From contig JAUUZA010000031.1 of NCBI GenBank assembly GCA_030590165.1, positions 1 to 7,662 of the forward strand: a DNA stretch of 7,662 nt. Reading direction: 5' to 3'. The position numbers and the translations under genes were made by a program. The stretch is from Candidatus Altarchaeota archaeon (GTDB lineage: Archaea; SpSt-1190). The notes beneath the pieces were generated by a model. The model searched no databases. It was not told where the DNA came from and was given only the letters and a program-made list of their open reading frames with translations. Positions 1 through 7,662 of this stretch are shown here, piece by piece. How positions within the stretch are numbered: the first letter of the stretch is position 1; each line of letters opens with the position of its first letter.

Positions 1-492
1 TGAGCTTCCAGCCTCATTAATTAAATATTCGAAACATTGAGGTAATTTATCATTACAAGAAACTTCACACATTTCATAAATTTTAAGAACATTTGAACAA
101 ACTTGTGTACATTCGGTAATCTCACGGGCACTAGAAGATATTAAACCATTACCTACACAATCCGAATCTGAATCAGTTAAACAATCCTTTGCTAATTCTC
201 CTAAGGCATAACCACAATTATCACTTACTTTTTCATAAGGCAACATCTTTATTGGAAGTTCATATGTTTCCAATATTGCTAAAGAATTGTATTTATCTCC
301 GTATAACCAATCTTCACAGGCTTGAGCAAGACTTTGAATACTCAGAAAACGTTGTTGTTGAATTTCTCCGGCTTCTTCAATATCATCTATTCCCCCTTCT
401 GCTCGTGCAAGAATATTAAAACCTAAAACAAGTAATGAAACTGCAATAATAACAGTCATAACAACAGGAATTGTTTGATTGGCACCCTTCAT
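1..492 (-). CDS. Cysteine-rich single-pass membrane protein, pilin-like (3' end outside window)
   Basis: An ATG at 492 opens a frame of at least 164 codons that reaches the window edge without a stop, so the C-terminus is missing. The N-terminus is MKGANQTIPVVMTVIIAVSL, a short charged start followed by a hydrophobic helix to about residue 28, then a helical acidic linker. This resembles archaeal pilin or class III signal-peptide proteins (a KG pair before the helix), but the residues after KG are not a textbook cleavage site. The rest is probably outside the cell. It holds nine cysteines (59, 93, 104, 112, 128, 132, 142, 146, 153), including a CX3C-X9-CX3C pattern that suggests disulfides. 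An in-frame TAA at 517-519 rules out a longer start. It is the last visible gene of the secretion-type cluster, 36 nt after its neighbour. I do not recognise the family; a minor pilin or surface subunit is an inference. Confidence 0.8.
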   Translation of the reverse strand, partial: MKGANQTIPVVMTVIIAVSLLVLGFNILARAEGGIDDIEEAGEIQQQRFLSIQSLAQACEDWLYGDKYNSLAILETYELPIKMLPYEKVSDNCGYALGELAKDCLTDSDSDCVGNGLISSSAREITECTQVCSNVLKIYEMCEVSCNDKLPQCFEYLINEAGSS

Positions 493-513
493 AGATGGAT
501 ATCTATCTATTTG

Positions 514-520
514 TATTTAA
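514..520 (-). promoter_or_regulatory. Possible TATA box for the cysteine-rich gene
   Basis: The minus strand reads TTAAATA here, centred about 25 nt upstream of the ATG at 492. That spacing is typical of leaderless archaeal transcripts, and no Shine-Dalgarno-like sequence precedes this ATG. No clear BRE is seen and AT-rich DNA gives such matches by chance, so this is a weak call. Confidence 0.3.
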
Positions 521-528
521 GAGTAGTG

Positions 529-657
529 TTATATGCCTGAAAGGAGTTGTTCTGGGAGTCCAGTTACTTTTGAGCCTAACATAAATACAAAACCAAGAAA
601 AAAGAGAGTAAAAAGTGTGAGTGTAATTAACCAAAAATATATCTCCTTTTTCCCCAT
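529..657 (-). CDS. 42-aa single-pass membrane protein, unknown
   Basis: A short complete frame begins with ATG at 655-657 and ends with TAA at 529-531. It starts MGKKEIYFWLITLTLFTLFF and ends GLPEQLLSGI. Two lysines at the N-terminus precede one strongly hydrophobic helix (about residues 6-29), followed by a short polar tail. By the positive-inside rule the N-terminus is probably cytoplasmic. It lies 18 nt after the 124-aa membrane protein and 36 nt before the cysteine-rich protein, on the same strand, which supports it as a real member of the cluster. No ribosome binding site is visible, so it may be leaderless. It matches no family I recognise. At this size coding is judged from context and hydrophobic pattern only. 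Confidence 0.6.
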   Translation of the reverse strand: MGKKEIYFWLITLTLFTLFFLGFVFMLGSKVTGLPEQLLSGI

Positions 658-675
658 TATTATATAATAAGTTTA

Positions 676-1050
676 TTATTTTATTAATTTTTCGTCATAA
701 TAAATTTCATAGAATTGCATATCCCCTCCAACAGGTAATACTAATTCGTCAAAAGGTCCAATTTTATTTTCAAATACAACTTCTTTGGAAGTTTCATTTG
801 AATAATAAAGTATTATCTTTAATTTTTCTCCGTCTATTGAAAAAGGATATCCATCTTCTGTACCTTTTCCTGTAAATCGAAATAATAAACTTGGAACATT
901 ATCAATTTCAGTTCTAATAATACTAAAAGAGGCGTCAAATAAAGGCCCCTCATCTTTAAGCCAAAGTTTTGGAACAAGAAAAATAAGGACAATTGCAAGT
1001 GCAACACCTGCTATAATAAGAAAGCCTGTTACATTGAATCCTTCTTCCAT
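676..1050 (-). CDS. 124-aa membrane-anchored protein with soluble C-terminal domain, unknown
   Basis: The protein has a short acidic N-terminus (MEEGFNVTG), one hydrophobic helix at about residues 9-27, then roughly 95 residues rich in alternating hydrophobic and polar positions (for example LKIILYYSN and ELVLPVGG). These suggest a beta-rich globular domain outside the membrane, and there are no cysteines. The plan of one N-terminal helix plus a small beta domain matches minor pilins and pseudopilins in general, but I see no prepilin peptidase site. It starts 8 nt after the stop of the preceding gene, with only a weak AGTG upstream of its ATG, and ends in two successive TAA codons. It is probably a component of the secretion or filament machine encoded upstream. 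The family is not recognised. Confidence 0.8.
   Translation of the reverse strand: MEEGFNVTGFLIIAGVALAIVLIFLVPKLWLKDEGPLFDASFSIIRTEIDNVPSLLFRFTGKGTEDGYPFSIDGEKLKIILYYSNETSKEVVFENKIGPFDELVLPVGGDMQFYEIYYDEKLIK
678..687 (-). promoter_or_regulatory. Possible internal TATA box before the 42-aa gene
   Basis: The minus strand reads TTAATAAAAT, centred about 26 nt upstream of the ATG at 657 and preceded by a BRE-like GAAAA. It overlaps the end of the upstream gene (…K, TAA, TAA). The local sequence is almost entirely A and T, so the match could be chance. Confidence 0.25.
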
Positions 1051-1058
1051 ATTAACAC

Positions 1059-1376
1059 TTATAATTCAGTAATATTTAGACAAACCCCTGATTCACTCGG
1101 TGAAGCAGTTATTAAATAAGGAGTATTTGCTTCAAGTTCACAAGGTCCCTCTGCACCAAGTTCAACACCTTCACATCCATATTCTGCATTTACTTGTTTG
1201 CATATATTAAATTGAACCTCCCTTGAAATTATTATGCTGTCAGTTTTTCCTTCACTTGCGGAATTAAGAATATCATAAATACTAGTTTCTTTTTTTGAAA
1301 ATTTGGAATTTATGGAAGTCATTAAAAATAAAGAGAGTAAGAGTAAAATTACAGTTGCAATAATTTTAAAGTCCAC
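1059..1376 (-). CDS. 105-aa membrane-anchored protein with four cysteines, unknown
   Basis: The frame starts with GTG at 1374-1376. An AGGG lies 7 nt upstream of it, which supports this start over the internal Met 19, and only the GTG start includes the whole hydrophobic helix (MDFKIIATVILLLLSLFLMT). The helix is followed by a charged segment (KFSKKE) and an extracytoplasmic-looking domain with cysteines at 59, 68, 79 and 99, enough for two disulfides. The segment GPCELEANTPYLITASPSES looks like a loop-rich small beta domain. The gene overlaps the end of the preceding 37-aa gene by 11 nt, implying coupled translation. Signal anchor versus cleaved signal peptide cannot be decided by eye. No known family is recognised; a minor filament subunit is an inference from the neighbours. 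Confidence 0.75.
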   Translation of the reverse strand: MDFKIIATVILLLLSLFLMTSINSKFSKKETSIYDILNSASEGKTDSIIISREVQFNICKQVNAEYGCEGVELGAEGPCELEANTPYLITASPSESGVCLNITEL

Positions 1377-1479
1377 TTAAGGTCCCTGCCACTTTTTGAA
1401 AGATACTTCCACCTAATGCTATGAATAACACAACACCAATTACTGCGACAAGCAACCAAATATATCGTTCCGAACTCAT
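1366..1479 (-). CDS. 37-aa single-pass membrane protein, unknown
   Basis: A small complete frame runs from ATG at 1477-1479 to TAA at 1366-1368. It begins MSSERYIWLLVAVIGVVLFI and ends KVAGTLSGL. The one hydrophobic helix covers about residues 7-24, and the tail is short and glycine-containing. It fills what would otherwise be a gap of about 140 nt between two co-directional genes, and its 3' end overlaps the next gene by 11 nt, whose AGGG ribosome binding site lies inside this frame. No Shine-Dalgarno precedes its own ATG. Earlier in-frame codons run back to a TGA near 1540 but contain no ATG or GTG. The case for coding rests on position, hydrophobic pattern and overlap. No family is recognised. 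Confidence 0.6.
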   Translation of the reverse strand: MSSERYIWLLVAVIGVVLFIALGGSIFQKVAGTLSGL

Positions 1480-1516
1480 GAAATTAAGAGGAAGTTTTGA
1501 TATTAAACCACATTGA

Positions 1517-1711
1517 TTATATTGTTGATGCGAGTGAGCTCATTACATTTTTTACAGAATTTTCAATAACTTCCCCCATGTGAGTAACTAAGGCGTCTGT
1601 ATAAGCCAGATTAGCGAACCCCTGTAGTGTATACAAAAATGCGACTATTCCCATTACTATAGTAATTGCTTGAAATAAAGAATACATTGAAAGGTCTGTG
1701 CTTTTACTCAT
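1517..1711 (-). CDS. 64-aa small membrane protein, unknown
   Basis: The ATG at 1709-1711 overlaps the TGA of the preceding gene as ATGA, and an AGGTG motif sits 7 nt upstream, so start and coupling are both clear. The sequence begins MSKSTDLSMYSLFQAITIVM. A hydrophobic stretch at about residues 11-35 is followed by an amphipathic tail (THMGEVIENSVKNVMSSLAS). This plan, a short polar N-terminus, one membrane helix and an amphipathic C-terminal helix in about 65 residues, is shared with two other proteins in this cluster. It also resembles in size the Flp-type pilins of Tad systems, though I see no Flp or prepilin peptidase motif. It could be a filament subunit or a small membrane scaffold. The family is not recognised. 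Confidence 0.75.
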   Translation of the reverse strand: MSKSTDLSMYSLFQAITIVMGIVAFLYTLQGFANLAYTDALVTHMGEVIENSVKNVMSSLASTI

Positions 1712-1905
1712 AAATTAACACCTGTTAAACCACTAACTGCCCCTTTGACTGCTGCCTTTGCCCACAGAAAAGGTGCAGCTCCTTGTCCGGCTTTTACAAG
1801 AGCTTCAAGTATGAAAGCCCCGAAATACATAGTAATTACTATTTTTACTACAAAAACGAATAATGCGACTGTCAGTTCTTCCATATCCCCAATTTGAGTC
1901 GACAT
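1708..1905 (-). CDS. 65-aa small membrane protein, unknown
   Basis: The start is the ATG at 1903-1905, because a strong AGGAGG lies 8 nt upstream. A longer TTG start at 1923 would place that motif inside the gene. The protein begins MSTQIGDMEELTVALFVFVV. A hydrophobic helix runs from about 12 to 36, then a glycine/alanine-rich second segment (GQGAAPFLWAKAAVKGAVSG) could be a second membrane or membrane-lying helix, so a two-helix hairpin is possible. It is separated from the preceding 46-aa gene by one nucleotide and overlaps the next gene by 4 nt. Such packing points to fixed stoichiometry or coupled synthesis. The family is not recognised. Context suggests a subunit of the ATPase/platform machine. 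Confidence 0.8.
   Translation of the reverse strand: MSTQIGDMEELTVALFVFVVKIVITMYFGAFILEALVKAGQGAAPFLWAKAAVKGAVSGLTGVNL
1719..1723 (-). promoter_or_regulatory. Ribosome binding site for the 64-aa gene
   Basis: The minus strand reads AGGTG, 7 nt upstream of the ATG at 1711 and inside the last codons of the preceding gene. It fits the archaeal 16S anti-Shine-Dalgarno and supports coupled translation through the ATGA overlap. Confidence 0.55.
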
Positions 1906-1906
1906 T

Positions 1907-2047
1907 TTATTTTCCTCCTGCAATTGAAAGTATTGTTGCTAATTGGTGTGGTTCACGTGCCCCAAAGAAAATGAAAGCAGCACCAATTACGAGTCCACCA
2001 ATAATTGCAATTATTAAACCTAAGATTGTAGAAATCCAGTCTTCCAT
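1907..2047 (-). CDS. 46-aa single-pass membrane protein, unknown
   Basis: The frame starts with ATG at 2045-2047, immediately after the TGA of the preceding gene, and ends with TAA at 1907-1909. It begins MEDWISTILGLIIAIIGGLV, followed by a glycine-rich hydrophobic helix to about residue 28, then GAREPHQLATILSIAGGK. The helix is rich in small residues (Gly, Ala, Ile), which favours tight helix packing in an oligomer. Zero spacing upstream and a single nucleotide downstream, together with a ribosome binding site for the next gene inside its coding region, make it a convincing operon member despite its length. The family is not recognised. A filament subunit, channel-forming peptide or small accessory of the platform are all possible. 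Confidence 0.7.
   Translation of the reverse strand: MEDWISTILGLIIAIIGGLVIGAAFIFFGAREPHQLATILSIAGGK
1914..1919 (-). promoter_or_regulatory. Strong ribosome binding site AGGAGG for the 65-aa gene
   Basis: A perfect AGGAGG on the minus strand lies 8 nt before the ATG at 1905. It is built from the GCA GGA GGA codons (Ala-Gly-Gly) at the end of the upstream 46-aa gene. It fixes the start of the downstream gene and is the clearest Shine-Dalgarno in the window, hinting at high expression of this subunit. Confidence 0.8.
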
Positions 2048-2245
2048 TCACTTTCCAACTCCCGAAATATACTTCATAAAGTCTACTGAATTTTTCAATA
2101 GATTTGTTACTGTTGATTGAAGAGACATAGTTCTAAGCATTCCCTTAATTAAGAAAGGTGCTGAAGACATTAAAGCAACAGCCAAAATTATTGCACCGAG
2201 CATAGTTGGAATCATACTCATCATCCATTCTGTATTTCTCTGCAT
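2048..2245 (-). CDS. 65-aa small membrane protein, unknown
   Basis: The chosen start is the ATG at 2243-2245, which overlaps the stop of the platform gene as TAATG. A GGTG lies 5 nt upstream. Upstream in-frame codons to 2323 encode an odd cysteine-rich stretch, but they lie wholly within the platform gene and are rejected. The protein begins MQRNTEWMMSMIPTMLGAII. One hydrophobic helix spans about residues 9-35 and an amphipathic basic tail follows (SLQSTVTNLLKNSVDFMKYI). It is met by the next ATG directly after its TGA. As the first small gene after the platform protein it is translationally linked to it, and it may be the main substrate or a direct partner. The family is not recognised. Confidence 0.75.
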   Translation of the reverse strand: MQRNTEWMMSMIPTMLGAIILAVALMSSAPFLIKGMLRTMSLQSTVTNLLKNSVDFMKYISGVGK

Positions 2246-4164
2246 TATAACACCGCTTGTGATAGTCCCCCAAATATTATTGCAACAAATGCCGCAGTTG
2301 CAACATATGTAATTGAGCCCCATAAAGTTATAGTTCCTATATTTAGAAACATTGTCATTTTATCCCATCCTTCTTGTAGACCACCAACAAATACCCCTAA
2401 AATTATACAAGTCATAACAACATATATTCCGACTATAAGTTGGAGATAACTTGGTTGAATTGCCCCTTTAACATTTAGAATATCTGAAACAACACCAGTT
2501 CCACTGGCCGCTCCCATTTGTGTTATGTCTGTTATTTGTCTCCCAATGTGAACCAATAAATTAGAGGTTATTTCACCGAGACCAACTATGGTCCCAGTTA
2601 TTATTGGGATAAGTAACATACCTTGAAATTTGATGCTGGACATGGAGTCAGATAATAAATCGTCAATTTTATTTTTTACGTCGTCCATGACTTTTAGATA
2701 TTTTGAAACACTAATTGCAGTCATTGATGCACTTTTAGGGCCTTTTTCTGCACTTTTGAAGATTACCATCATAATATTACGTATGAGATTACTCGGGAAA
2801 GAATTCATTAATCCATTTTTTTCATCGAATAGAACTTTTTCAAGTGGCCATCCAATAGTTTTCATTCTACTTGTCGCAGTCATAAAAAAAGTTTCAGTTT
2901 CACTTCCTTTCATTCTTTCAGCGACATCTTCCATTGCTTGTTCAAGAGGTATACCTTGACTCATAACATTTCCTAATTGATAGAGTGCTGATGCAAATTC
3001 TCTTTCAAGATTTGAAACACTTTTTTTAATTTTTTGATTTTCTTGAGCCCAGGAAATAAAGAACAAACCGAAAGGAATACCTATTGCTAAAATTATTGGC
3101 ATAGTCATTATTGATGCTTGTGCTGAATCTTCCATAACTGTTGAGGAAAGTACAAAGGGATTGATTGCAATTATTATAACTTGAAGTGTGAAAAATACAA
3201 ATCCAGTAATAATCATAAGGGGGAGTGCATTGAAAGTTTTTCCTAACATTGTAACTTTATATTTTGTTTTTTTGTATTTAATTTCACTGAGTGAACCCGG
3301 TCGTTTTCCTAGGATATAAATTATAGTTGTTCCGAGAGATAAAGGGAGGAGAAAATCATAAATTAAAAACATGGCAGGACCAACATTTGAAGTACTAGTG
3401 AATACACTTACTATTGGTAACATTACTAACATTAGTACTGGGAGCATAATTCCAAATGCATTGGTTGCCATTACAGGAAGGTCGAGACTTCTGGCGAAAT
3501 CTTCCATAACTTTTTTTGTTCCGTCAAGAACGGTTGTAACTGATTTTTCTAAAGTTCTAGTTCTCATGTCTCCACCCTCACGCATACTTCCCGCTATGAG
3601 ATAGAGACCTTCTGCCACATGTGGAGCCCATTCCTTGATTTGAGTACTATACCAAGTCAAAGCCTGTTCCATATCTGGAATTTTACGAGTTTCAACGAGC
3701 CATAATAAATGTTTGAATATTCTGCCCATAGGGTCCGGCATATTTTTTGCAGAAAAGGCTACACTTGATTCAAGATTTGGTGTAACTTCCATTGCAATTA
3801 CAAGATAAAGAAGTGAAAGCGGTGCTTGACCTAGAATTTTTAATTTTCTCATTTTTGCTAAATATAATGGAACATAACCACAAATAAATGCAAATAAAAA
3901 AGGTAGAAGGAGTGCAACCCAATTTGTTAGTGAACTCTTACCCAGAGTAAAAATGATGGCTGAAAGAGGGAGGGTTAGAAATGCGACGAGTAATCCAAGA
4001 TTTGCAGCGTGTTTAAATCTAATGAAGATATCAACTTCTTCCATTTCCTTATCAAAACTGGCACTTTCCCAATTAATTTTTAATTTATTATATGCCCAGA
4101 TGGCTGCTTTTTCGTATGCCATTAAGTCTACAGTCTGTTCTCTTATGAACTGGTCATACTGCAT
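2245..4164 (-). CDS. Type II secretion / type IV pilus platform protein, FlaJ/TadC-like (T2SSF domains)
   Basis: This polytopic protein of about 639 aa is the expected inner-membrane platform that partners a secretion ATPase. About eight or nine hydrophobic helices are visible (from ATG 4164: roughly 53-74, 80-103, 232-255, 262-285, 313-335, 353-372, 513-531, 573-595, 605-632). Two cytoplasmic helical regions each look like a T2SSF (GspF/FlaJ) domain. The first is at about 110-230 (around LLYLVIAMEVTPNLESSVAF), the second at about 385-515 (around ALYQLGNVMSQGIPLEQAME). A duplicated T2SSF arrangement is known for archaeal FlaJ-type and fused TadB/TadC-type proteins. A GGAG 6 nt upstream supports ATG 4164. 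A GTG at 4176 with a TATA-like ATAAATAA at 4197-4204 is the alternative, adding four residues. It follows the ATPase gene by 44 nt and overlaps the next gene by one base. Confidence 0.88.
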   Translation of the reverse strand: MQYDQFIREQTVDLMAYEKAAIWAYNKLKINWESASFDKEMEEVDIFIRFKHAANLGLLVAFLTLPLSAIIFTLGKSSLTNWVALLLPFLFAFICGYVPLYLAKMRKLKILGQAPLSLLYLVIAMEVTPNLESSVAFSAKNMPDPMGRIFKHLLWLVETRKIPDMEQALTWYSTQIKEWAPHVAEGLYLIAGSMREGGDMRTRTLEKSVTTVLDGTKKVMEDFARSLDLPVMATNAFGIMLPVLMLVMLPIVSVFTSTSNVGPAMFLIYDFLLPLSLGTTIIYILGKRPGSLSEIKYKKTKYKVTMLGKTFNALPLMIITGFVFFTLQVIIIAINPFVLSSTVMEDSAQASIMTMPIILAIGIPFGLFFISWAQENQKIKKSVSNLEREFASALYQLGNVMSQGIPLEQAMEDVAERMKGSETETFFMTATSRMKTIGWPLEKVLFDEKNGLMNSFPSNLIRNIMMVIFKSAEKGPKSASMTAISVSKYLKVMDDVKNKIDDLLSDSMSSIKFQGMLLIPIITGTIVGLGEITSNLLVHIGRQITDITQMGAASGTGVVSDILNVKGAIQPSYLQLIVGIYVVMTCIILGVFVGGLQEGWDKMTMFLNIGTITLWGSITYVATAAFVAIIFGGLSQAVL

Positions 4165-4170
4165 ACTGGA

Positions 4171-4174
4171 CTCC
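4171..4174 (-). promoter_or_regulatory. Ribosome binding site GGAG favouring the ATG at 4164
   Basis: GGAG on the minus strand lies 6 nt before the ATG at 4164. It overlaps the competing GTG start at 4176, so the two starts are mutually exclusive in mechanism: leadered at 4164, or leaderless at 4176. Confidence 0.4.
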
Positions 4175-4208
4175 ACAAATCTATGTAAATCTAGACTTAT
4201 TTATTCTT

Positions 4209-6377
4209 TCAAATTCTAGTTCTTAGCCATTTATCCCATCTATTATATATTTCACTGGTGTCGGCGTAACCGAGTTCTTCTCTTACTTGGCCTTCTAGTA
4301 TATGAAACATATCATTTGCATCGACTACAAAATCTGCTTCGAGTAAATGAGCATTTCCACTTGCGTTTGCAACACCAACCAAACGTTTTTTTAGTTTTCC
4401 TCTAAGTTCTATATTTTCCCAAACTGCATCAAAATTTCCAACCCAATCACGTACTCTACTTGCAATAGCATTCACTATTTCACTTTCACCGTCCATTAGT
4501 ACACTGGTTGGGAAGAGTGAATCTGATTTTGCATCGTATTTCATTAAGTCAACAAAACCTTTTTCTCGTAGTGGGTCATCTTCCCAATGTTTTCTTACTT
4601 CAGTTATTCCAATTACCCTGCGGTATCTTTGAAGTCCGTCAGCACTTCTAATTGGATTTGCAACAATAATAATATCTGATGCTTTGAAACTTGTTTTTGG
4701 AACACCCAAGTCATTCACTACCCTGTCATATACTCCATATGGTGAATCACCGTGTATGGTTCCTGCAACTACATTTGCTAATGCTCCTACACGCATGGCT
4801 TCGTAGAGTGCTAAGGCTTCTTTACTTCTTACTTCACCTACAATTAAAGCAGAGTCACCGAGCCTTAAACTGGTTCTAATTCCATTTTCTGCACTAATTT
4901 CACTGGCCACTGGAATAATTGGACTTCTTACTTTTAGTGATTGAATATTGTATCCCATTTTCATAAAATGTTTTACTGGAAGTTCTAAGGTATCTTCAAC
5001 TGTAATAATACGATAACGCCTCATAATTTCTACCATTAAACTTTGTAAGAGTGAAGTTTTTCCTGCACCCCTAGTCCCAGCAACAAGCATGGTTCTTGCT
5101 CCATCAATAAAGAAACTTAAGAGTCCTGCTGCCATTGGTGTAAGCATTCCATGTTTAATGAATAAAGGTAGAGTCCAAGGTTTGTCTCTATGGCGTCTAA
5201 CTGAAAAACTTAACCCGTATGGACTTAGACTTCTTGTGATTGCAGCAACTCTTGCTCTAATATTTCCGAATTCAATTTGAGTGTCTAAGACTGGATTACT
5301 TTCATCAAGTGGTCGCCCACTTTGAAGTCTTAGTCTTGCGGCCCAAGCTTGAGTTTCTTCAACTGTTGGATAAATATTACTTTCACAATCTTCAACATCT
5401 GCGTGATAAATAAAAATTGGATTTGTTAATGGACCATTGATTGCAATATCTTGGATTTTTGGGTCTGCCAGTAATACTTCTAATATTCCAAATCCGACTG
5501 TTTCACGCGTAATAATCCCGGCTAATTTACTAATATTGAGTTTGATACGTTTCTTCTTTTCTTCTTCTCTTAACATATCTTCTGTTATATTTCTGACTGA
5601 ATCTCGAATAGTCTTAGGGTCAATTAATTCTTCTCCCTTTGGTTTGTATATCATTAAACTTTCTTTTAGTCTTTCAACAATATTGTATTCAACCTCACTA
5701 AGTTTGAATTCTGGAGGTAGGAGGTGGTAAAATATTCTGACGTGTCCCGGTCTTTTAATTAAAGTAACCTCCGAGTCTCCAATTTTATAGCTGTCAATTT
5801 CTTCACCCCTTGGATATTGAGCCATAAGTTTAGTGAGTGTAAAATTTGGTCTGACTGCTGGACGAAGAACTCTTCGGTATAAACTTCTGTCACCTACTTT
5901 GTAGCCTTCAAGATGACCTTTCACTTTGTCTATAAGAGTAAGGTTTTCAAATATTTCAGTGAATTTTCTTAGTAGTTTAATATAATGAAGTCTGAATTTT
6001 GCATTTCGTTCACTTTCTTCGCGCTCATACTCAATTTCTTGCCAACGTTTTTCTCTCTTTAATTCGACATAGGCTCCTATTGGGTCTTTGCTTATTGTTC
6101 TTGCCAGTGCTTTTACAAAATCTATCCAATCATTACCAATTTCAGCATCTATTGGTTTTATTTTTTCTTTTGAAATATTTATTAGGTCTGATGCCTTTGC
6201 AATTTGAACTAACATTTCTGTTTGTTCTGGGTCGTATTCTCGGATTTTTCTTGCAATTAAAGTAATTTTATCTACTTTTCTGGCTTTTTTTATGGCTAAA
6301 ATAACTTGCTCCATACAAGCCTCACTTTCTTCAATGACTGGTGGAAAAGCAGCCTTTGTTAGATTCATTTCCAACAT
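4209..6377 (-). CDS. Archaeal type II/IV secretion-type motor ATPase (GspE/TadA/FlaI superfamily)
   Basis: This 722-aa protein is a hexameric-type cytoplasmic ATPase that would power a type IV filament or type II secretion-like machine. From ATG 6377, the Walker A motif GTRGAGKTS is at 434-442, the Asp box IITVEDTLELP near 457-467, Walker B SALIVGEVR near 509-517, and the His box VVAGTIHGDSPYGVYDR near 536-552. The preceding N-terminal ATPase subdomain includes GFGILEVLLADPKIQDIAI. The first 280 residues form a long charged, helical extension, making it larger than FlaI (about 550 aa). The C-terminal 130 residues (VWENIELRGKLKKRLVG, ANDMFHILEG) resemble archaeal TadA-like ATPases as I recall them. 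The ATG at 6377 has AGGA 9 nt upstream and a TATA-like ATATTTAT near 6415-6424. An earlier ATG at 6434 adds 19 unlikely residues. It is the first gene of the cluster and sits directly before its platform. Confidence 0.92.
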   Translation of the reverse strand: MLEMNLTKAAFPPVIEESEACMEQVILAIKKARKVDKITLIARKIREYDPEQTEMLVQIAKASDLINISKEKIKPIDAEIGNDWIDFVKALARTISKDPIGAYVELKREKRWQEIEYEREESERNAKFRLHYIKLLRKFTEIFENLTLIDKVKGHLEGYKVGDRSLYRRVLRPAVRPNFTLTKLMAQYPRGEEIDSYKIGDSEVTLIKRPGHVRIFYHLLPPEFKLSEVEYNIVERLKESLMIYKPKGEELIDPKTIRDSVRNITEDMLREEEKKKRIKLNISKLAGIITRETVGFGILEVLLADPKIQDIAINGPLTNPIFIYHADVEDCESNIYPTVEETQAWAARLRLQSGRPLDESNPVLDTQIEFGNIRARVAAITRSLSPYGLSFSVRRHRDKPWTLPLFIKHGMLTPMAAGLLSFFIDGARTMLVAGTRGAGKTSLLQSLMVEIMRRYRIITVEDTLELPVKHFMKMGYNIQSLKVRSPIIPVASEISAENGIRTSLRLGDSALIVGEVRSKEALALYEAMRVGALANVVAGTIHGDSPYGVYDRVVNDLGVPKTSFKASDIIIVANPIRSADGLQRYRRVIGITEVRKHWEDDPLREKGFVDLMKYDAKSDSLFPTSVLMDGESEIVNAIASRVRDWVGNFDAVWENIELRGKLKKRLVGVANASGNAHLLEADFVVDANDMFHILEGQVREELGYADTSEIYNRWDKWLRTRI

Positions 6378-6390: not shown

Positions 6391-6452
6391 GACCGTTTTA
6401 GCTTGAAGTTCACAAAAATAAATATTGAGGTCATATTTAGGGATATTTGAAG

Positions 6453-6944
6453 CTAAAATTTAGGTCTAATTACTTTAACTTCGAGGGTTTCTAAGCCTAC
6501 ATCTTGTTTTGCGAGTAAATCACCCTCAATTTTAATGGGGGTAAGAGAACTGATGAGGATTAGGATTCTTCCCTTCTTATTGAGATGTTCTTTTGCCTGT
6601 TCCAAGAAATTTTTTATTATTGTTCCGTCTCCACAACATAATTCTTTGTCTTCTTCGTAGGGACAGGGTAAGTAAGGTGGATTGAAAATAATTAAATCAA
6701 ATTTTCCTATGACATTTGAAAATAAGTTTGATTGGAAAGCGCGTAGATTTGAAATATTAAAATTATTTACAGTTTGAACTGCTTCTTGGTTTATGTCAAC
6801 TGCAAGGACTTCATCAAATGTTTTTGCGAGTTGTTTTGCTAAGATGCCTGAGCCTGTTCCTATTTCTATTGCTTTTTTTCCTGAGAAGTTGAATTTCTTT
6901 AGAACATTTAACATTAAAACTGAATCTTCCCTTGGCTTATACAC
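6453..6944 (-). CDS. HemK2/Mtq2-like protein-glutamine N5-methyltransferase (release factor aRF1 GGQ)
   Basis: The 163-aa protein is a Rossmann-fold SAM-dependent methyltransferase. It has an N-terminal YKPREDSVLML typical of HemK2/N6AMT1-type enzymes, motif I EIGTGSG (27-33), an acidic motif II VDIN (49-52), and the catalytic NPPY (88-91), which marks amide or amino-N methylation. The family usually methylates the glutamine of the GGQ loop in the class I release factor, in archaea and eukaryotes together with the small activator Trm112. The start is GTG at 6942-6944, because an in-frame TGA lies two codons upstream and the conserved YKPREDS must be included. It is probably leaderless, with a TATA-like box about 26 nt upstream. 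The family is usually 180-215 aa, so this copy is short, ending soon after EVKVIRPKF. It follows radB, an unrelated function. Confidence 0.88.
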   Translation of the reverse strand: MYKPREDSVLMLNVLKKFNFSGKKAIEIGTGSGILAKQLAKTFDEVLAVDINQEAVQTVNNFNISNLRAFQSNLFSNVIGKFDLIIFNPPYLPCPYEEDKELCCGDGTIIKNFLEQAKEHLNKKGRILILISSLTPIKIEGDLLAKQDVGLETLEVKVIRPKF

Positions 6945-6955
6945 ACCTCAAATAA

Positions 6956-7123
6956 ATCAAGTTGTTTTTAATAAATCTCCTTTTTAACATAATTTGATTT
7001 CTAATAAATTTCTTTGTTATATAATTCAAATTTTAATAAATTCTCTTGTCGTATAATTTTAATAAATTTTTTTATCACACAATTTAAATTTTAACAAATT
7101 CCTTTATCACATAATTTAAATTT
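6956..7123. repeat. Degenerate ~32-bp tandem repeat array derived from the 3' end of radB
   Basis: Minus-strand units lie at 7110-7079 (32 bp), 7078-7053 (26 bp, with a 6-bp deletion), 7052-7021 (32), 7020-6989 (32) and about 6988-6956 (diverged), preceded by a partial unit at 7123-7111. Two of the full units (7021-7052 and 7079-7110) match at 24 of 32 positions. Each contains a core close to AATTTATTAAAA. The array begins inside radB: the last ten codons and stop of that gene (7123-7091) span almost exactly one unit. The following units still read as variants of the same peptide and stop, so the array looks like serial duplication of the gene's end. It occupies the whole intergenic gap, and no other gene is seen there. 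Units are too degenerate and spacer-free for CRISPR. Confidence 0.75.
6966..6975 (-). promoter_or_regulatory. Probable TATA box for the methyltransferase gene
   Basis: The minus strand reads TTTATTAAAA, centred 26-27 nt upstream of the GTG at 6944 and preceded by a purine-rich BRE-like AAGGAGA. This spacing fits a leaderless archaeal transcript that starts at or near the GTG. The box is part of the last unit of the tandem array described separately. Confidence 0.5.
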
Positions 7124-7662
7124 AGCTTCCCTTTGTTCTGGTCTTGAGCGGTGTTTTACTAGGATGGCTTTTCTTTTTCCTACTCCTGTTTTTTTCAGGA
7201 GTAAAATATTTTTTGCTAAATATTTTATGACATCGCCTCCTACAATGTGCAACTTTCCGTCTTTCTTGTAGACATGACCTGTAATAATTACTGGAATATT
7301 TTTTGTTTCTGCAATATTGTGGAGTTTCAAAATTTGTTTTGCTAATAAAGTATTCATTTTATTTGGGTTGTCGTGAACTTGTAATCTGTATAATAAAACT
7401 AAACTATCAATAATTAAGAGGTCAGCATCCAACTTAAGTTTATTAATTAATTTTGTTTGGTTTTCAAATTCTCTGACTTTTGCAATTTTTATGTGTTCTA
7501 CTCCAATTTGTTTTACTCTGTTTAGACTGAGGCCTTCGGTGTCAATGAAATATGGTTTTTTGGCGTTTCTGGCTAAGAATAAACATAGGGAAGTTTTTCC
7601 CACTCCTGCCCTTCCTACAATGGCAGTAACAATTCCCGGTTCAATGTCAGTTAAATTGTCCA
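7091..7662 (-). CDS. radB: RadB, archaeal RecA/Rad51-family recombination mediator (5' end outside window)
   Basis: The frame is open to the window edge, giving 189 aa. RadB is usually about 220 aa, so some 30 N-terminal residues are missing. A GTG at 7603 lies inside Walker A and is not the start. Visible features are Walker A GRAGVGKTS (about residues 16-24 of the visible part), FIDTEG, Walker B DLLIIDS (80-86), the ITGHVY strand, GGDVIKYLAKNILLLKK, and the basic KHRSRPEQREAKFKL typical of the RadB C-terminus. RadB lacks the long N-terminal domain of RadA and acts as a paralogue or mediator of homologous recombination in euryarchaea and many DPANN. The tail KFKLCDKGIC and its stop make up one unit of the downstream repeat array. 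No functional link to the secretion cluster is apparent. Confidence 0.9.
   Translation of the reverse strand, partial: DNLTDIEPGIVTAIVGRAGVGKTSLCLFLARNAKKPYFIDTEGLSLNRVKQIGVEHIKIAKVREFENQTKLINKLKLDADLLIIDSLVLLYRLQVHDNPNKMNTLLAKQILKLHNIAETKNIPVIITGHVYKKDGKLHIVGGDVIKYLAKNILLLKKTGVGKRKAILVKHRSRPEQREAKFKLCDKGIC

Follow-up and report, generated by a model that had tools for sequence, protein, structure and literature searches.

We identified a locus in Candidatus Altarchaeota archaeon SpSt-1190 that is probably the core of a type IV filament machine of Altiarchaeota, with a run of small membrane proteins as its reduced pilin-like subunits. The DNA stretch analyzed (7,662 nucleotides, hereafter the window) is an entire contig (C53) of a 724-kb assembly (G000) that is 87.6% complete. 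Genomes of the family to which it belongs are 0.6–0.9 Mb in size, and a scan of genome contigs with the ATPase gave only two named relatives, the nearest being Candidatus Altiarchaeota bins DPANNHV_H2. Reduced pilin-like subunits are preferred over an unknown translocon because a relative of the same class has prepilin-type leaders at matching places.

Gene content of the locus

The minus strand of the window encodes, in order, a RadB recombinase that is truncated at the contig boundary, a HemK2/MTQ2-type methyltransferase, a motor ATPase, a membrane platform and nine small proteins designated P1–P9 (Table 1). A first-pass annotation of this DNA had reported nine same-strand frames behind the ATPase and platform, almost all with one hydrophobic helix. 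Their lengths proved to be exactly as claimed, with gaps of −11 to +37 nt between neighboring genes, and a hydropathy scan detected exactly one hydrophobic segment in all nine proteins.

Table 1. Features of the proposed filament locus in the window
Feature	Position	Strand	Description	Evidence
Motor ATPase, TadA/CpaF/FlaI type	4209..6377	-	722 aa from ATG; 741 aa from upstream ATG at 6434	Pfam T2SSE, NCBIfam, PDB, tree
Membrane platform, TadC/FlaJ type	2245..4176	-	639-643 aa; two T2SSF halves; nine hydrophobic segments	Homology
P1	2048..2245	-	65 aa, one helix, without leader	Family conservation, pN well below pS
P2	1907..2047	-	46 aa, one helix, fast-evolving	Family conservation of place
P3	1708..1905	-	65 aa, one helix	Family conservation
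P4	1517..1711	-	64 aa, one helix, YxLFQAxxIVMG	Family conservation
P5	1366..1479	-	37 aa, one helix	36-37 aa in 7/7 family genomes
P6	1059..1376	-	105 aa, one helix and Cys-containing outer domain	Family conservation
P7	676..1050	-	124 aa, N-terminal helix and predicted beta-sandwich	Structure model
P8	529..657	-	42 aa, one helix, fast-evolving	Family conservation of place
P9	1..492	-	At least 164 aa (full length ~185), MKG, long N-terminal helix, Cys-rich domain	Cut by contig end

The ATPase had been described as GspE/TadA-type, and it matched Pfam T2SSE with 64 bits (cut-off 24.9) and contained an intact Walker A motif (GTRGAGKT). NCBIfam TadA/FlaI-type profiles matched it below cut-off, the best match being TadA-type, and its FlaI equivalog score of 130.6 was far under the cut-off of 550; matches in PDB included a T2SS ATPase (2oap), CpaF (8rkd) and FlaI (4ii7). 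The platform of the window scored only 11.4 bits against T2SSF, below the cut-off. Its homologs, which share 28–33% identity with it, matched T2SSF twice (one match above the cut-off), so the double-T2SSF platform proposed earlier holds by homology. Platform matches were found in 56 of 101 archaeal genomes. Both an ATPase (T2SSE/VirB11-like) and a platform (T2SSF/TadC/FlaJ) of the T4P superfamily are thereby present in the locus.

Phylogenetic analysis of the ATPases grouped the class Altiarchaeota together (97/100) among DPANN-type ATPases, many of which have divergently transcribed coiled-coil genes upstream. The array ATPase was placed apart from the other T4P ATPases of the same genome; support for the deepest split was moderate (82/96), and long branches caution against reading more from this tree. 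Two further loci of this genome are of note. The first (L096, G000:C60, 1065–7111) is an ordinary-looking T4P locus: besides its ATPase, it encodes a pair of separate TadC-like proteins and a pilin-like protein containing KGQASPDF. The other (L097, G000:C20, 248–2774) has a third TadA/FlaI-like ATPase (410 aa), behind which lie two short frames that may be platform fragments.

No known Pfam or NCBIfam family, pilin families included, matched any of the small proteins or P9, which agrees with the earlier statement that no recognized pilin, archaellin or Tad component is among them. The structure model of P7 (pLDDT 73.6) consisted of a helix and a beta-sandwich, and the top row in VIA-align was 8fj5, a type IV pilus of Haloferax volcanii (Z 7.0, 79 residues, 3.4 Å), tied with lamin and other unrelated Ig folds; Foldseek returned no match under 0.001 for P7. 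The predicted fold would be compatible with an archaeal pilin. P9 was modeled with low confidence (pLDDT 66.5) as a 40-residue helix and a helical domain, and Foldseek found no significant PDB match for this model. The array gave no basis for naming one major pilin.

Conservation of the array in the family and the class

The small genes were conserved beside the ATPase and platform, as would be expected from the proposal that they belong to one machine. P1–P9 followed the platform in an unchanged order throughout the family genomes compared, which represent six genera; in the six genomes other than the window's own, this holds as far as each contig reaches. Lengths in the family were 63–66 (P1), 45–64 (P2), 60–71 (P3), 61–67 (P4), 36–37 (P5), 104–116 (P6), 121–139 (P7), 39–48 (P8) and approximately 185 aa (P9). 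For P1, P3, P4, P5, P6 and P9, amino-acid identity was 30–72% in the pairs compared (42–48% between P1 and its nearest relatives), and these proteins are clearly under purifying selection: pN was clearly below pS, a ratio that serves here as a sign of selection and not as a measure of it, because independent sequences are few and synonymous sites are near saturation. P2, P7 and P8 evolve fast (10–32% identity), yet their place, size and topology are kept. The N-terminus of P1 read M-x4-E-W in six of the seven family genomes and N-W in G002. Chance frames or mis-called genes can be dismissed, since the order of the nine genes is kept in the other genomes of the family and since pN is clearly below pS in P1, P3–P6 and P9.

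P9 is truncated by the end of the contig, and the array goes on as P10–P17 on another contig (C26) of the same assembly. This part was located by a search with P12, a protein of ~145 aa with the motif PIWIVVxLLLALVVGxxMYQ. This brings the array to approximately 17 single-helix proteins. Intact contigs of G001 and G002 also contained more single-helix proteins behind P9 (eight in G002). Assembly breaks fell within the short P9–P11 stretch in five of the seven family assemblies (window 1–492 and the ends of G005:C26, G004:C44, G006:C66 and G003:C62), compared to 0.9 expected (P ~0.0004), an excess suggestive of repeats, or of differences between strains, around P9. In several DPANN-type genomes, an Alba-like protein (GxKPxMxYVLAVVTQFxxG) was repeatedly observed just downstream of the filament array (L047 14781, L049 15327, L051 11557, L104 5499 and L143 15256).

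We further checked the occurrence of the array in other archaea. P9 was detected in nine of the 10 class genomes and P12 in all of them, and both were absent from the 91 other archaeal genomes; Altiarchaeota is the one archaeal class that has the array. G009, a class member of a different family, had eight genes of 64, 51, 62, 62, 36, 160, 178 and 52 aa between platform and P9, a size order that matches that of the window's family (24 of 362,880 permutations fit as well), and its P9 and P12 were clear homologs at matching positions (E ~1e-16 and ~1e-21). The size order in G007, where separate contigs carry the array and the ATPase–platform pair, matched by mature length (408 of 362,880 permutations were as good). 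The array of G008 was similar, with two small proteins sharing one reading frame. Neither a single-profile search nor a profile-profile matrix revealed homology of P1–P8 across families above background; permutation p values for the window's family versus other families were 0.17 for P1–P5 and 0.10 for P1–P8. Equivalence of P1–P8 beyond the family therefore rests on order and size, given that the profile comparison did not exceed chance. On the contig of G007 that carries the ATPase and platform, these genes are followed by two large proteins (905 and 607 aa) with an N-terminal hydrophobic segment (L046, 8137–12691).

Leaders and the prepilin peptidase

A leader is the defining feature of prepilins. 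In the archaeal class III signal peptide, a basic N-terminus is removed just before the hydrophobic helix (PMC4858521). We observed basic [KR]G leaders in 13 of the 19 array proteins of G007, including all of P1–P5, compared to 4.1 expected after shuffling, with the reservation that some G007 start codons are uncertain and that the P8 frame has no assigned start. Among other G007 proteins with an N-terminal helix, none of five had such a leader. The leaders of P1–P5 end (slash) at NRG/EEEQ, RRG/AMGE, RRG/VKAN, KRG/ELGG and QRG/ITMS, a few residues ahead of the hydrophobic core, and without them the proteins have 57, 51, 75, 59 and 42 aa, near the full lengths of their counterparts in the window's family. 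Leaders in G008 (eight of 17 proteins, 4.5 expected) were less striking than in G007.

In the window's family, no [KR]G site was present on P1–P5 and P7, except for one MRG in P4 of G003. Hidden leaders were excluded by checking in-frame upstream extensions of P1–P5 in all family genomes: most met an early stop or lacked a start codon, and none of the few possible extensions contained a [KR]G leader. P9 had MKG or MRG in five of six family genomes, and one or the other was also kept by P12. The P12 leaders align with one another (NRG/QGQPVWI, RRG/SMDQTIW, MKG/TDQPIWI and MKG/DAGSPIWI), and the MKG of the family sits exactly at the presumed cleavage site of the relatives. The simplest reading of these observations is that the window's family may have lost or minimized the leaders of its pilin-like proteins.

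The first-pass annotation had called the prepilin peptidase signature weak or absent. An A24 peptidase is in fact encoded in this genome, on a different contig (G000:C37), where it scored 26.5 bits, at the cut-off. Such peptidases were found in nine of the 10 class genomes. Among those examined, G000, G005 and G003 had an ASGD motif with both Asp residues kept, and G007, G008 and G009 had GGGD. The altered motif would agree with relaxed or changed substrate demands, without proving them. The A24 gene (L098, reverse strand, G000:C37 ~26300–27070) adjoins a histone-like gene, and the same is true of relatives. Some prepilin cleavage is probably still needed in the window's genome, since its second T4P locus has a pilin with a normal KGQASPDF site. 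We also considered a leaderless filament, in which at least five mini-pilins would be made at mature length and assembled without cleavage, and the altered-motif peptidase would trim only MKG from a few larger subunits; this is a tentative idea that we regard as rather doubtful.

Nature and possible function of the machine

In the model that we favor, a cytoplasmic ATPase would power the double platform. The platform would in turn extract pilin-like subunits with a single helix from the membrane and build them into a filament, or into a short pseudopilus; the array would supply these subunits (P1–P9 in the window and P10–P17 on C26). P1–P5 would be five head-less mini-pilins of 37–65 aa and P8 another, together forming the core subunits; their size is reminiscent of the short pilins that build Tad and Epd pili. 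P6 and P7 may be subunits with small outer domains, and P9 and the later proteins, approximately nine larger subunits, are probably minor, tip or adhesive components. In the window's family the mini-pilins would be made directly at mature length with no prepilin leader, with P9 and P12 keeping the three-residue MKG. We infer that the small proteins polymerize and form a filament, whose most likely role would be to make contact with partner cells or surfaces. The genes for coiled-coil and multi-helix accessory proteins lie at other places in the genome.

Several known systems are related to this locus. The closest appears to be the type IV pilus-like Locus 2 of DPANN archaea, which consists of CpaF, TadC and coiled-coil proteins and is reported for cluster 2 DPANN and Undinarchaeota, not for Altiarchaeota (PMC11291902). 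The figure legend there names filament proteins for Locus 1 only, and the section consulted describes no ordered mini-pilin array (PMC11291902). Like Locus 2, the window has an ATPase of the CpaF type next to a TadC platform, both from the same lineage as their Locus 2 counterparts, and judging from gene content it would correspond to Locus 2. The coiled-coil genes of Locus 2 adjoin the ATPase in G008 and G009 (L105 in the latter), whereas in the window's genome they are not at the locus but form an unlinked pair at G000:C16 (L138–L141 and L151); this separation was seen in the window's family. At L140 and L141 the pair was accompanied by multi-helix proteins with the motif FFPFxLxFxIxYxxL.

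Archaeal Clade 1 or Epd pili have complex multi-pilin loci (PMC4858521) and very short major pilins of ~70 aa (PMC6668835). The window shares with them a complex locus and many pilin-like proteins; however, they have two separate TadC genes and an EppA peptidase, whereas the window has one fused double platform, and no EppA was seen in the locus. Tad Flp-type pilins have a leader and an E5-Y6 motif. In P1, numbered from Met, residue 6 is Glu and residue 7 is Trp; the protein has no leader, and no Flp profile matched. Likeness to bacterial Tad lies in the TadA-type best NCBIfam match of the ATPase, its CpaF structure matches and the short head-less pilins, in contrast to the one fused platform where Tad has TadB/C; profiles for Flp, secretin and other Tad accessory proteins had no match among the scanned proteins. 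The motor and platform are also FlaI/FlaJ-like, as in archaella, but no window protein matched FlaH, FlaF/G, FlaC/D/E or archaellin profiles, and the locus does not qualify as an archaellum. Altiarchaeota are known for hami and have been described as lacking archaella (PMC8407392).

These comparisons modify two earlier proposals. The suggestion of a new lineage-specific machine stands in that the locus is conserved and its subunits are lineage-specific; the kind of machine is already known, because its ATPase and platform come from a lineage of type IV filament systems that is DPANN-wide and has been noted in the literature (PMC11291902). The small proteins had also been proposed as filament or translocon subunits. 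The leaders in a same-class relative favor the filament half of this proposal, in the form of reduced pilin-like subunits, over an unknown translocon. As far as could be found in the literature, three features are new: the ordered array, its restriction to the class and the loss of leaders.

Other explanations of the small proteins are less probable. P1–P5 and P8 might be permanent membrane parts (a base, stator or channel), leaving P9 and the larger downstream proteins as the only pilins. Such a role would fit the position of P1–P5 directly behind the platform gene, sometimes overlapping, their constant length in all family genomes (P5 within one residue and P1 within three) and the fact that in the window's family they are leaderless and, in most cases, have no space upstream for a leader. 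However, the G007 counterparts of P1–P5 carry prepilin-type leaders, and Tad and Epd systems normally have short pilins that lack a head (PMC6668835), so we consider it unlikely that they are fixed components. Still less probable is a pseudopilus that secretes proteins without forming a long surface filament. The many different subunits with no obvious single major pilin would suit it, and one-membrane archaea could conceivably use a piston-like pseudopilus, but the locus has no linked gene dedicated to secretion or encoding a cargo, and related loci in other lineages carry coiled-coil proteins that are thought to act in attachment (PMC11291902).

The neighborhood of the ATPase raises the question of a DNA-uptake pilus, in which the machine would import DNA and the adjacent RadB recombinase would handle it. 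RadB lay upstream of the ATPase in four family genomes (the window's own, G001, G005 and G006); this was not the case in G002, and no other class genome was seen to have RadB next to the ATPase. A HemK2/MTQ2-type methyltransferase lay between RadB and the ATPase in three of those four family genomes (window 6453–7660). Since this other neighbor is a housekeeping methyltransferase, the adjacency of RadB may be due to chance, and the array showed no gene for a competence DNA channel; DNA uptake is thus a very improbable function.

Approximately 17 dedicated subunit genes in reduced genomes of 0.6–0.9 Mb represent a large investment, and the filament machine proposed here is likely a contact organelle. 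If the main subunits are indeed leaderless, leader cleavage would be uncoupled from type IV assembly. Because pilin-like proteins in this class range naturally from those with leaders to those without, the supposed requirement for prepilin processing in type IV assembly can be put to the test. In addition, gene order and protein size could identify filament genes of uncultured DPANN archaea where sequence fails.
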